The translations under genes were made by a program, and so were the position numbers. From positions 466,325-530,324 of the forward strand of contig NZ_NCQY01000030.1 of assembly GCF_002894645.1 (NCBI RefSeq): a DNA stretch of 64,000 nt. Direction: 5' to 3'. Within the stretch, counting starts at the first letter, position 1. The number at the start of each line of letters is the position of its first letter. Of the stretch, positions 49,183 through 54,566 are shown piece by piece. Source of the DNA: Salinibacter altiplanensis (GTDB lineage Bacteria > Bacteroidota > Rhodothermia > Rhodothermales > Salinibacteraceae). Under the pieces are notes generated by a model. That model saw only the letters and a program-made list of their open reading frames with translations. It did no database searches and was not told where the DNA came from.

Positions 49183-50202
49183 ATGGCCTCGTACGCAAAG
49201 CGCACGGCGTTTGTCACCGGCGGCACCGGCTTCGTCGGCAGTCACCTCGTGGAGGAGCTTTTGCGCCGCGGCATGGAGGAGGTCCGCTGCCTCGTACGGA
49301 CCGATCCGAAGTGGCTCTCGGGCCTGGACGTGACGACCGTGCGGGGCGACCTGTCGGACGTGGAGGTGCTTTGGGACGCGCTCGAGGGCGTGGACGAGGT
49401 GTACCACGTGGCGGGTCGGACACGGGCCCCGACGGAAGAGGAGTTTTACGAGGCAAACGTACAGGCGACGCTCAACCTCCTGGGCGCCGTCCGGCACGCC
49501 GCGCCGGCCCTCGACCGGGTACTGGTGACGAGCAGCCTGGCCGCCGTGGGGCGGTGCGAGCACGATGTGGCCACGGAGGAGGCCCCACTCCGGCCAGTCA
49601 GCATGTACGGACGCAGCAAAGCACAGATGGAGCAGGCCCTCCGTGAACGGCCCGAGACCACGCCTGAATCGTACGCGGAGTCGTTGCCGCTGACCGTCGT
49701 TCGCCCCCCTGCCGTCTATGGCCCGCGCGACCGGGACATTCTTGATTTCTTTCGGGCCGTGACGCGGCACGTGTGCCCCGTGGTGGGCGGGGGCTCCGCC
49801 CGGACACTGAGCCTCGTTCACGCACGGGACCTTGCCGTCGGCATGGTCGACGCCGTCCGGCACCCGGATGCAGCCGGGGAGACGTACTTCCTCGGCAGCC
49901 CACGGCCGTATGCCTGGAACGAGGTCAAACAGGCCGCCACCACGGCCTTAGACACATGGGCCGTGACCGTGCCAGTGCCCGGCCCGCTACTGGGCGCCGT
50001 CGGCGCGGCGGCGGAGGCCTGGGGCACACTGACCGGCACCCATCCGCCGCTCAACCGCGACAAAACCCGCGAAATTCGGCATGCCTGTACGGCCTGTTCC
50101 AGTGAGAAGGCCACCCGTGACTTCGACTACGCCCCGTCGGTCGCCCTCGGGGACGGGGTGTCTCGCACGCTTCGTTGGTATGTGGAGCAGGGGTGGCTGT
50201 AG
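49183..50202 (+). CDS. NAD-dependent epimerase/dehydratase (extended SDR)
   Basis: Rossmann-fold extended SDR of 339 residues. It has the cofactor loop VTGGTGFVGSHLVEELLRRG, the catalytic Tyr-Lys in SMYGRSKAQMEQAL and the substrate-side LTVVRPPAVYGPRDRDIL. The C-terminal part (VSRTLRWYVEQGWL) is typical of the dihydroflavonol reductase/3-beta-HSD-like branch of the family. Substrate unknown. ATG at 49183 (MASYAKRT) gives the standard N-terminus; the upstream in-frame section is low complexity. It precedes the 2-oxoglutarate dehydrogenase gene by 113 bp with no obvious link. Confidence 0.85.
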   Translation: MASYAKRTAFVTGGTGFVGSHLVEELLRRGMEEVRCLVRTDPKWLSGLDVTTVRGDLSDVEVLWDALEGVDEVYHVAGRTRAPTEEEFYEANVQATLNLLGAVRHAAPALDRVLVTSSLAAVGRCEHDVATEEAPLRPVSMYGRSKAQMEQALRERPETTPESYAESLPLTVVRPPAVYGPRDRDILDFFRAVTRHVCPVVGGGSARTLSLVHARDLAVGMVDAVRHPDAAGETYFLGSPRPYAWNEVKQAATTALDTWAVTVPVPGPLLGAVGAAAEAWGTLTGTHPPLNRDKTREIRHACTACSSEKATRDFDYAPSVALGDGVSRTLRWYVEQGWL

Positions 50203-50315
50203 GGCCGCCTCCGCCGACCCATTCCCCCGCGAATCCTCGTCGGGAATGCGTCGTACATGGTAGTCGCTCCAGGCGGGGAGCCACGTTTCTCTTGCGATCA
50301 ACTGATCTTTCCACC

Positions 50316-53300
50316 GTGAGCAGCCTCGGATTCAACACGGGCTACATCGAAGAACTGTACAAACAGTACCAGGACGACCCCGACAGCGTGAGCGAGAGCT
50401 GGCGCGAGTTCTTCGCGGACTACGACCCGGACGCGTCCTTCATTCCGGTTACACAGACGACCGCCGGCGACGGGGAGGCCACCACGCCCCCCGAACAGCC
50501 GACGGAGCCGGAGGCCCGCGAGGAACCGCCCGGGGCGTCTCCAACTCCCCCAGCGGCCGAGGACGGCGTCGTGGAGCCCCTCCGCCCCGCCTCGGCCCCT
50601 GCGGTCGACGAGAACAAGGCCGACGTGACGGCCATGACCGGTCCGTCGGCCAAGGTCGTCGAGAACATGGAGGACAGTCTCGGCGTCCCGACGGCCACCT
50701 CCGCCCGTACGATCCCGGTCAAGCTGCTGGATGAGAATCGCACGCTCCTAAACGACTATCAGAAGCAGGTCGGCGGCGAGAAAATCTCGTACACCCACAT
50801 CATCGCCTACGCGATGGTGCAGGCAATGAAGAAGTACCCGGACCTGAACACCACTTTCCGCCGGAGCGAGGACGGCACGCCGGAGCACGTCAAGCCCGAT
50901 CAGATCAACCTTGGGCTTGCCGTGGACGTGGAGCGACGGGGCGAGCGCACCCTGCTGGTGCCCAACCTCAAGGATGCGGGCAGCCTCAGCTTCGCTGAAT
51001 TCCTCGGGACCTACAACAATGTCGTCGGCCGCGCGCTGGACGGCGACCTCAACCTGTCCGACTTTCAGGGCACCACGGCCACCCTCACCAACCCGGGCAT
51101 GATCGGCACGTCGATGAGCGTGGCACGCCTGATGCCCGGCCAGGGGGTCATCGTGGGGGCCGGGGCGATCGACTTCCCGCCGGAATACCGCGGGTACGCC
51201 CCCGAGGTGGCGAGCAAGGCCGGAGTCTCTCCGGTCATGACACTGACCTCCACCTACGATCACCGCGTCGTCCAGGGCGCCACCAGCGGGGCCTTCCTGA
51301 ACCACATCGAGGAGCTCCTGATGGGCACGCACGACTTCTATCAGCGGATCTTTTCCGATCTGAGCGTGCCCTATCAGCCCTTCCAGATGGCCACCGACTC
51401 GACACCACAGCTCGGGCGGGCTCGGCCCCAGGACGAGCTCGACATGACGGAGAAGCAGGCGGCGGTGCTTCAGCTGATTCGGGCCTACCGGGTCCGTGGT
51501 CACCTGCAGGCCGACATCAACCCGCTCGGCTACGAGTGGCAGTACCACGAGGAGCTCGACCCCGCCACCTACGGCCTCACGGTCTGGGACCTGGACCGGG
51601 CGTTCATCACTGGCGGCCTCGGGGGCGAGGAGAAGCTGCCCCTCCGCAAGATCCTGTCCATCCTTCGGAAGTCCTACACCAGCGAGGTCGGGACGGCCTT
51701 CATGCACATCTCCGATCCGGAGGAGAAGACGTGGATCCAGAACCGAATCGAGCCGATGCGGGATGCCGGGCCGCCGTCCGAGGACGATCGGCACCGGATT
51801 GTGCAGAAGCTCAACGCAGCGGAGGCGTTCGAGCGCTTTCTGCACACCAAGTACGTCGGCCACAAGCGCTTCTCCCTGGAGGGGTCGGAGACCATGATTC
51901 CCCTCATCGACACCCTCCTCTCCGACGCCGCCGACGCGGGCGTGGAGGACGTGGTAATGGGCATGGCCCACCGGGGCCGCCTCAACGTACTGGCCAACAT
52001 TATCGGCAAGCCCTACGAGGAAATCTTCTCCAAATTTGAGGGCAACATCGACCCGAACACGACCCAGGGCTCCGGCGACGTGAAGTACCACCTGGGCGCC
52101 GAGGGCCATGTCACCTCGCCCGACGGCAACGAGATTGCCGTGACGCTCGCCTCGAACCCCAGCCACCTGGAGGCCGTCAACCCGGTCGTGGAGGGCATGT
52201 CCCGCGCCAAGCAGAACCTGTTGCGCGACGAACACCCCGAGGCGACAGAGGACGACTACCACGACGCCGTAATGCCCCTCCTGATTCACGGGGACGCCGG
52301 CTTCGCCGGGCAGGGCGTGGTGGCGGAGACCCTGAACCTCAGCAAGCTGCGCGGCTACACGACCGGCGGCACCGTCCACCTGGTCATCAACAACCAGATC
52401 GGCTTCACCACCCCTCCGGGCGACGCTCGCAGTTCAACCTACGCCACGGACCTGGCCCGTGCCATCGAGGCGCCCATCTTCCACGTCAACGGGGACGACC
52501 CCGAAACCTGCGTCCGCATCGCGCAGCTGGCGTTCGAGTACCGTCAGCGCTTCAACAAGGACGTGGTCATCGACATGATGTGCTACCGCGTCCACGGACA
52601 CAACGAGGGCGACGAACCGACCTTTACGCAGCCGCTGCTCTACGAGAAGATTGAGGCGAAGCGCTCCCCACGCAAGCTCTACACCGAGATGCTGCTCCGC
52701 CGTGGCGAGATCGAACCGGACGAGGCGGAGCAGATGCTCGACGACTACCGAGGCCGGCTCCAGGAGGCCTTCGACCGCACCAAGGACCTGGAGGAGAAAG
52801 ACGCCGAGGCGGCCTTGCAGGAACGGGTTCAGCGCACGGCCGACGATCGACTCCCCGAGGTCGATACCACGGCGCAACGCGAGCACCTGGAGCGGGTTGT
52901 GGAGGTTCTCACCGACTTTCCAGACGATTTCAACGTCCACCGGAAGCTCAAACGGCTGTTTGGGAAGCGCGACGACCTCTTCCACGATCAGGAGCGCATC
53001 GACTGGGCCTTCTCCGAGGCGCTGGCGTTCGGCTCACTGCTGCAGGAGGGCACGCGCGTTCGACTGAGCGGACAAGACTCGCGTCGCGCAACGTTTAGCC
53101 AGCGGCACGCCGTGCTCATTGATCAGGAGACCGGCGACGAGTACACGCCGCTCAACAACCTGTCGGACGACCAGGAGCGGCTTCTCATCTACGACAGTCT
53201 CCTCTCGGAGTACGCGGTGGCCGGGTTCGAATACGGCTACTCGGTGGTGGACAAGGATGCCCTGACCTGCTGGGAGGCTCAGTTTGGCGACTTCGCGAAC

Positions 53301-54038
53301 GGGGCAGAGATCGTGTGGGACCAGTTCGTGAGTGCCGCCGAGGAGAAGTGGGGACAGACCTCTGGCCTCGTGGCTCTGCTGCCCCACGCCTACGAAGGCC
53401 AGGGCCCTGAGCACTCTTCGGCCCGCCTGGAGCGCTTCCTGCAGCTCTGTGCGGAGCAGAACATGATCGTCGCCAACTTCTCCACGCCGGCCAACTACTT
53501 CCACGCCCTGCGCCGACAGGTGAAGCGCGACGTCAAGAAGCCGCTCATCATCATGACGCCCAAGAGCCTGCTGCGGCATCCAAAGTGCGTCTCTACTCCC
53601 GACGAGCTCATGAACGGGGGCGTGCAGGAGGTCATCCCGGCTGCGACGAAGGCCACGGACACCACACGGCACATTCTCTGCAGCGGCAAGGTGTACTACG
53701 ACCTTGTGACGGCGCTGGAGGACCACGACCGCCGCGACGAGATTGCCATTACGCGTCTGGAGCAGTTCTATCCCTTTCCCGCGTCGGATCTGCGGGCGGA
53801 ACTGGAGCGCTACGCCGGGGCCGACGAGACCGTATGGGTGCAGGAGGAGCCTCAGAACATGGGCGCCTGGTCGTTTGCGTCTCCACGCTTCGAGACCCTC
53901 CTGGAGGAGATTCACGGGCCCTGCGAGCAGCGCCTTCAGTACGTGGGGCGCTCCGCCAGTGCCAGTCCCGCCACCGGCTCAGCCAAGGTACACGACCGGG
54001 AACAGGAGCAGCTGGTCGAAGACGCCCTCGCCCTCTAA
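50316..54038 (+). CDS. kgd: Fused E2-E1 2-oxoglutarate dehydrogenase (Kgd type)
   Basis: TCA-cycle enzyme that combines a succinyltransferase-type E2 domain with the thiamine-dependent E1 domain in one 1240-residue chain. An E1o N-terminal motif (LGFNTGYIEELYKQY, residues 3-17) is followed by an acidic/Pro-rich linker to about 120. The E2 catalytic domain (125-360) has His316 in TSTYDHRVVQGATSGAFL. The E1 domain (430-1240) has MAHRGRLNVLANI, GDAGFAGQGVVAETLNLSKL and the TPP/Mg region. There is no lipoyl domain. This fusion is best known from actinobacterial Kgd. GTG at 50316 gives the family N-terminus. The separate E3 and any lipoyl E2 must be elsewhere. Confidence 0.92.
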   Translation: MSSLGFNTGYIEELYKQYQDDPDSVSESWREFFADYDPDASFIPVTQTTAGDGEATTPPEQPTEPEAREEPPGASPTPPAAEDGVVEPLRPASAPAVDENKADVTAMTGPSAKVVENMEDSLGVPTATSARTIPVKLLDENRTLLNDYQKQVGGEKISYTHIIAYAMVQAMKKYPDLNTTFRRSEDGTPEHVKPDQINLGLAVDVERRGERTLLVPNLKDAGSLSFAEFLGTYNNVVGRALDGDLNLSDFQGTTATLTNPGMIGTSMSVARLMPGQGVIVGAGAIDFPPEYRGYAPEVASKAGVSPVMTLTSTYDHRVVQGATSGAFLNHIEELLMGTHDFYQRIFSDLSVPYQPFQMATDSTPQLGRARPQDELDMTEKQAAVLQLIRAYRVRGHLQADINPLGYEWQYHEELDPATYGLTVWDLDRAFITGGLGGEEKLPLRKILSILRKSYTSEVGTAFMHISDPEEKTWIQNRIEPMRDAGPPSEDDRHRIVQKLNAAEAFERFLHTKYVGHKRFSLEGSETMIPLIDTLLSDAADAGVEDVVMGMAHRGRLNVLANIIGKPYEEIFSKFEGNIDPNTTQGSGDVKYHLGAEGHVTSPDGNEIAVTLASNPSHLEAVNPVVEGMSRAKQNLLRDEHPEATEDDYHDAVMPLLIHGDAGFAGQGVVAETLNLSKLRGYTTGGTVHLVINNQIGFTTPPGDARSSTYATDLARAIEAPIFHVNGDDPETCVRIAQLAFEYRQRFNKDVVIDMMCYRVHGHNEGDEPTFTQPLLYEKIEAKRSPRKLYTEMLLRRGEIEPDEAEQMLDDYRGRLQEAFDRTKDLEEKDAEAALQERVQRTADDRLPEVDTTAQREHLERVVEVLTDFPDDFNVHRKLKRLFGKRDDLFHDQERIDWAFSEALAFGSLLQEGTRVRLSGQDSRRATFSQRHAVLIDQETGDEYTPLNNLSDDQERLLIYDSLLSEYAVAGFEYGYSVVDKDALTCWEAQFGDFANGAEIVWDQFVSAAEEKWGQTSGLVALLPHAYEGQGPEHSSARLERFLQLCAEQNMIVANFSTPANYFHALRRQVKRDVKKPLIIMTPKSLLRHPKCVSTPDELMNGGVQEVIPAATKATDTTRHILCSGKVYYDLVTALEDHDRRDEIAITRLEQFYPFPASDLRAELERYAGADETVWVQEEPQNMGAWSFASPRFETLLEEIHGPCEQRLQYVGRSASASPATGSAKVHDREQEQLVEDALAL

Positions 54039-54135: not shown

Positions 54136-54166
54136 AAAAAGGGACGGACCCGCTCGGGCCCGTCCC
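54136..54166 (-). terminator. Rho-independent terminator after rpsU
   Basis: On the minus strand GGGACGG pairs with CCGTCCC (54141-54147 with 54160-54166), followed by TTTTT (54136-54140). It lies 55 bp beyond the rpsU stop codon. The two terminators sit back to back between convergent genes. Confidence 0.85.
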
Positions 54167-54221
54167 CAACAACGATGCCGGACGTCGTTTCGTCGACGTC
54201 CGCGACCAAATGTAGGGCGCT

Positions 54222-54434
54222 CTACTTGCGTTTCCGATTGTCACCACGTTTCCGCTGGCGGTGACGCCGTCGGCGCGACCGCTTCTCTTCAAGCCGCTTC
54301 TCCTCCGAGGGCTTCATGTACGTCATGTTCTGCCGATACTCCTGCAGCACACGGCTCCGGTTCACCTGACGCCGGAAGCGCTTGAGCGCACGATCAATGT
54401 CTTCGTTGTTCCGTACTTTTACACCAACAGCCAA
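54222..54434 (-). CDS. rpsU: 30S ribosomal protein S21
   Basis: Small-subunit protein bound near the platform and the 3' end of 16S rRNA. The 70-residue protein has the family start AVGVKVRNNEDIDRALKRFR, then the helical body RSRVLQEYRQNMTYMKPSEE and a very basic tail (SRRRRHRQRKRGDNRKRK). The start is TTG at 54434, decided by GGAGGGA (complement of 54441-54447) lying 6 bases upstream; a longer frame would add 40 unrelated residues. An SD-directed start is unusual here: almost no other gene in the window has one. In Bacteroidota, S21 helps hide the anti-Shine-Dalgarno sequence, so self-regulation is plausible. Confidence 0.93.
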   Translation of the reverse strand: MAVGVKVRNNEDIDRALKRFRRQVNRSRVLQEYRQNMTYMKPSEEKRLEEKRSRRRRHRQRKRGDNRKRK

Positions 54435-54440
54435 GGTAGA

Positions 54441-54454
54441 TCCCTCCGTAGGGA
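54441..54454 (-). promoter_or_regulatory. Shine-Dalgarno hairpin before rpsU
   Basis: On the minus strand the leader reads TCCCT-ACGG-AGGGA, a perfect 5 bp hairpin with a 4 base loop. The AGGGA arm is the core of the Shine-Dalgarno sequence GGAGGGA that precedes the TTG start. When folded, the hairpin would mask the site, giving a possible off state. Confidence 0.65.
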
Positions 54455-54566
54455 GTTTGGTTTTGAAGTAGAATGGATAGTGCTTAAAATGCAAAGCAGA
54501 AACGCGAATGTGAGAGGCATGTTTCTTTTCTGCGCCTTTACGCCTCTCCTCCACTCCGTTGCCCTC

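Follow-up and report, generated by a model that had tools for sequence, protein, structure and literature searches.

The window, the whole stretch of 64,000 nucleotides of Salinibacter altiplanensis DNA that was analysed, carries on its minus strand the gene rpsU for ribosomal protein bS21, preceded by a Shine–Dalgarno (SD) sequence (Table 1). The product is assigned to S21 by Pfam (PF01165, E = 3.5e-15), and the genome has no other S21 gene. On the minus strand the region around the start reads CCAAACTCCCTACGGAGGGATCTACC-TTG-GCTGTTGGT; the leader upstream of the start is ACTCCCTACGGAGGGATCTACC, and the element that precedes the UUG codon is GGAGGGAUC. The first-pass annotation had read a TTG start with GGAGGGA six bases upstream, together with a TCCCT/AGGGA stem closed by a four-base loop, and both are present in the sequence as described. 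An Rfam scan of the rpsU locus gave only sub-threshold matches, none of them above the family cut-offs. The neighbours of rpsU are a convergent odhA (2-oxoglutarate dehydrogenase) and a divergent rdgB/Ham1 gene, and the terminator-like hairpin that follows rpsU suggests that it is transcribed alone, as a single-gene transcript.

Table 1. Features of the rpsU locus, in positions of the window.
Feature	Position	Strand	Basis
rpsU, ribosomal protein bS21 (70 aa)	54222..54434	minus	PF01165 and single S21 gene in the genome
rpsU start codon TTG	54434-54432	minus	read from the sequence
SD core GGAGGGAT; GGAGG pairs with 16S rRNA CCUCC	54440..54447	minus	RNAduplex with the 16S tail of the same genome
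Second half of the SD helix, GATCT; partner is GGAUC of the 16S tail, past one bulged A	54438..54442	minus	GAUC/GAUU kept in relatives
Putative masking hairpin TCCCT-ACGG-AGGGA	54441..54454	minus	MFE −6.3 kcal/mol in this species
Intrinsic-terminator-like hairpin 3' of rpsU	54140..54167	minus	scan: 12-pair stem, then T-rich tail

The 2-oxoglutarate dehydrogenase gene (50175–54038, plus strand) encodes an E2-type acyltransferase catalytic domain fused to E1 domains (Pfam 2-oxoacid_dh, E1_dh, Transket_pyr and OxoGdeHyase_C), as in actinobacterial Kgd/OdhA. Upstream of the rpsU SD, an AACCA(A/G)AC block is conserved in Salinibacteraceae and Rhodothermus (window 54457–54466; leaders L005, L020, L009–L014 and L038, where L denotes individual leaders and, below, f families and g genera). 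Its CCAA may pair with the UUGG at the start codon, or the block may be the transcript start.

A pattern search for 16S tails across 108 related genomes gave a hit in this genome only, probably because the searched stretches exclude rRNA. The 16S rRNA of this genome ends in GGCUGGAUCACCUCCUAAAG and has an intact anti-SD (GGAUCACCUCCUAAAG). This agrees with the published description of Salinibacter and Rhodothermus, in which an A follows CCUCCU (CCUCCUA) and no SD logo is seen (PMC3155529). When a bulge is allowed, the rpsU leader pairs with this tail at −16.1 kcal/mol (RNAduplex). The helix consists of GGAGG/CCUCC and GAUCU/GGAUC, five plus five pairs with one A of the 16S rRNA bulged out; the bulge-filled form of the SD is GGAGGUGAUC. 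When the bulge is forbidden, GGAGG pairs alone at −7.0 kcal/mol, equal to the GGAGG of rplC, and the longest unbroken run is five pairs. The strength of the rpsU SD depends on the bulged helix: the strong site claimed for rpsU at first pass is there with the bulge and ties with rplC without it.

SD use elsewhere was surveyed in stretches that total about 784 kb, roughly 22% of the genome, using 221 genes with one plausible, unambiguous start and two mock zones as a control. Of the 221 genes, 1 has GGAGG in its SD zone, against 4 and 5 in the two mock zones, and mean pairing is −4.9 in the SD zone against −5.5 in the nearer mock zone, i.e. weaker before starts. SD motifs before start codons are thus at or below the mock-window level in this part of the genome, which bears out the earlier view that other genes carry almost no SD. 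Nor do many genes have an equal SD, the finding that would have spoken against that annotation: with a bulge allowed, neither the 221 genes nor the 24 others from ribosomal-protein operons include one that equals rpsU. The pairing of rpsU is the strongest when set against all 221 genes, and the strongest SD zone besides it (−15.6) belongs to a doubtful ORF. Among 25 genes from ribosomal-protein operons, a set that covers part of the ribosomal-protein genes and includes the translation and secretion genes tuf, secY and map, rpsU ranks first; rplC follows at −9.8, a gap of about 6 kcal/mol. The flanking genes in Rhodothermales relatives have SD at the mock level, with no enrichment. Mock windows in this GC-rich genome occasionally reach −16 to −20.5 kcal/mol, and because chance matches arise in GC-rich DNA, conservation is a better argument than a single strong match. 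In two f5 genomes (L085 and L094) the dtd gene near rpsU (product MIALVQRV...) has the SD-like sequences AAGAAGGTGATTCAGC-ATG (−15.0) and ACGGTGATAC (−12.8), against −3.6 for the window's dtd.

S21 is present in 194 of the 196 genomes of the class, and 123 non-identical leaders were compared. GGAGG-GAUC, or its f5 counterpart GGAG-UGAUC, is shared by most genera of Salinibacteraceae and by several families of Rhodothermales. GGAGGGAUC or near forms occur in Salinibacteraceae g1, g2, g4, g5 and g6 and also in f4, f8 (Roseithermus) and f9-type leaders, while pairing of about −12 to −20 kcal/mol is reached in these same five genera and in members of f4, f5 (g19, g21 and g37), f8, f9 and f2. The Salinibacteraceae g3 form is GAGGGGAUU (−9.7 kcal/mol). 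The f5 leaders (g19, g21 and g37), GGAGUGAU(C/U), lengthen this complement but skip another nucleotide (bulged C), L006 and L007 (Salinivenus) have AGGAGGAGAUCU with a mismatch in place of the bulge, and in Rhodothermus (f2) the extension that follows AGGAGG is shorter. GAUC or GAUU is retained in f1, f4, f5, f8 and f9-type leaders. GAUC is also still present in L021 and L022, where GGAGG has decayed to GAGG, and the same decay in g4 (Longimonas) leaves GAUCC intact, an argument for selection on the second block. In some Balneolales the leader carries GAAAGGAUGUGAUA or GAAAGGAAGUGAG and the start is AUG, with pairing at −15 to −17 kcal/mol for an assumed UUUCU 16S tail. No rpsU SD was found in sampled f7 (except g28), in f10, in genus g74 or in many Balneolales, and several lineages have thus lost it. 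The first-pass annotation had staked its reading on conservation in close relatives; conservation of the SD and of the non-AUG start reaches well beyond the genus.

Among 95 Rhodothermales-type leaders, 93 have TTG or GTG as the start codon; of the 54 with a visible upstream stop, 48 have a single candidate start, never ATG. In the S. altiplanensis genome, ATG starts 23 of the 24 other genes from ribosomal-protein operons. Coupling of the UUG start to the SD was considered and rejected, as f7 and f10 keep UUG or GUG without an SD.

In the ribosome of Flavobacterium johnsoniae, bS21, bS18 and bS6 form a pocket that holds the 16S tail (PMC9976891), and loss of bS21 raises rpsU translation through SD–anti-SD pairing, as was shown experimentally (McNutt et al. 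2023, PMC9976891). The same regulation is predicted for much of Bacteroidia and all Chlorobia (PMC9976891). The S. altiplanensis genome resembles that of F. johnsoniae in its single rpsU, its intact anti-SD, its scarcity of SD sequences and an rpsU SD that is the strongest of the ribosomal-protein genes tested. The bS18 and bS6 proteins are closest or near-closest to the F. johnsoniae chains. Tyr54 of F. johnsoniae bS21 is replaced in the window's bS21, and it is likewise absent in Chlorobia (PMC9976891). We infer that the anti-SD is hidden in Rhodothermia as well. In Balneolales, the residue of bS21 after KPS is V or I, as in F. johnsoniae, where rpsU has an SD, and E or K where it has none; this split possibly reflects shared ancestry only.

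Taken together, rpsU is probably autoregulated through an unusually strong but interrupted SD site. In ribosomes that contain bS21, the anti-SD tail would be kept away from the mRNA, so that translation of most genes begins with no SD. A shortage of bS21 would leave 30S subunits that lack the protein and expose the 16S tail, which would pair with GGAGG and GAUC(C/U) of rpsU around one bulged nucleotide. This pairing would set the weak UUG or GUG start in the P site and bS21 would be restored. In the window's genus, the small hairpin may impose a further cost, one that would be met only by an anti-SD that is free. Observed here are the 16S tail, the rpsU SD, the scarcity of SD sequences in the genome and the conservation of SD and start codon; regulation by ribosomes lacking bS21 in this class, and any role of the hairpin, we infer. 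Counted against autoregulation are the ungapped SD of −7 kcal/mol, far weaker than the 9–13 consecutive pairs of Bacteroidia, and, from the sequence comparisons, the lack of conservation of Tyr54 and the absence of the SD in several sampled lineages.

The first-pass annotation had proposed such feedback, with low S21 freeing the anti-SD to drive rpsU translation. That proposal matches the F. johnsoniae mechanism and the conserved SD and start, while the hairpin that it built in fares less well. The idea is not new, having been demonstrated for F. johnsoniae and put forward for a large part of Bacteroidota (PMC9976891), and the feedback reading of rpsU is likely a variant of the published circuit. 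Rhodothermia is not named in the main text of that paper (PMC9976891). Bacteroidia rpsU genes are described there as forming 9–13 consecutive pairs, which is a description and not the cut-off of the paper; the criterion is pairing below −13 kcal/mol with the program free_scan (PMC9976891). The window's rpsU has five plus five pairs around a bulged A in place of 9–13 consecutive ones, and the values to be set beside −13 kcal/mol, −16.1 (RNAduplex, bulge) or −7.0 (ungapped), come from a program that differs from free_scan. If the latter bars bulges, the window's rpsU would score about −7 and be missed.

Unlike in F. johnsoniae and Bacteroidia, the helix is interrupted here, by a bulged A in the window and a bulged C in f5, and in two clades the SD may be covered by a hairpin. 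The UUG or GUG start also differs from that of F. johnsoniae rpsU, which is AUG. Chlorobia likewise lie outside Bacteroidia and have a bS21 without Tyr54 and a strong rpsU SD (PMC9976891), but they are a different lineage, and the window's SD pairs by two blocks with a bulge. The rpsU genes of Ignavibacteria, Kapabacteria and Chlorobiaceae MAGs (L122, L123, L127 and L133) have a non-AUG start and a strong SD, for example AAGGAGGTGAATTTTTGTG at −17.1 with a UUUCU tail. In Chryseobacterium-type Flavobacteriales an altered anti-SD and the rpsU SD covary (Jha et al. 2021, as cited in PMC8710568). Selection maintains rpsU–16S pairing there as here; unlike them, Salinibacter keeps the CCUCC core and only the downstream tail differs (CCUCCUA; PMC3155529).

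Alternatively, the anti-SD could be exposed in Rhodothermia but left unused by most genes, and the rpsU SD be an ordinary strong ribosome-binding site that aids the UUG or GUG start or high output, with no feedback. This would fit the replaced Tyr54 of bS21 and the near-universal UUG or GUG start of Rhodothermales rpsU. However, only rpsU among the ribosomal-protein genes tested has a strong SD, though their output needs are similar, rpsU is likewise the strong-SD gene in Bacteroidia and Chlorobia (PMC9976891), and non-AUG rpsU starts occur without an SD in f7 and f10. We regard an ordinary site as unlikely.

The hairpin over the SD is kept in the window's genus, mostly through C/U changes opposite G, and also in g6. 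Eight of the nine distinct g1 leaders that were tested carry a 5 bp stem, as do most f5 leaders, where the analogous stem is CACUC-AAG-GAGUG, and f9 has an 8 bp version. In the window's species it shows no excess stability over shuffles (z = −0.08 for the leader and 0.07 for the hairpin segment; shuffle p of about 0.1–0.25), and a Fisher test over 23 lineages gave p = 0.41 against shuffles and p = 0.03 against background leaders. In an alignment of 21 rows, drawn mainly from hairpin-bearing clades, 94% of the cells are paired compared with 47–63% in controls with a slid partner, and changes on both sides occur in two pairs. Most of the double changes are one f1–f5 difference, and the pair counts are therefore not taken as proof. 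The stem is absent in the f1 genera g2, g4 and g5, all of which keep the SD, and in f2, f8 and most f13 leaders that retain the SD. Conservation of the hairpin throughout the family was consequently rejected, since sister genera keep the SD without the stem. Of the masking hairpin proposed at first pass, what stands is its retention in the genus and the compensatory changes in a second family. A hairpin that acts as the main regulator, for instance as a temperature- or salt-sensitive fold to which the bS21 level is secondary, could draw on the g1 and f5 stems, the two compensatory pairs and the excess of paired cells. Against it stand the shuffles, the Fisher test, the choice of aligned sequences and the SD-bearing lineages without a stem, which make it quite improbable. 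The hairpin is possibly a local refinement outside the core of the circuit. Least credible of all is a chance match or functionless relict: mock windows of this GC-rich genome sometimes reach −16 to −20 kcal/mol, but several families keep the two-part complement at the same spacing in leaders that otherwise diverge.

With autoregulation by bS21 as the preferred reading, the new part is the extension to the class Rhodothermia and the variant features, namely the interrupted helix, the non-AUG start and the local hairpin. That these features form a circuit specific to Rhodothermales, in which a fixed non-AUG start, an extended SD broken by one missing nucleotide and, in two clades, a hairpin over the SD would give a sharper threshold, with rpsU translated only when the anti-SD is free, is a speculative proposal that we hold to be doubtful. 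Clear examples of regulation by specialised ribosomes in bacteria are few, and autoregulation of rpsU would extend one of them to a deeply branching class. The results suggest that scans blind to bulges would miss such SD sites, and the natural variation in this class, with its bulged helix, non-AUG start and gain and loss of SD and hairpin, can separate the requirements of the circuit.
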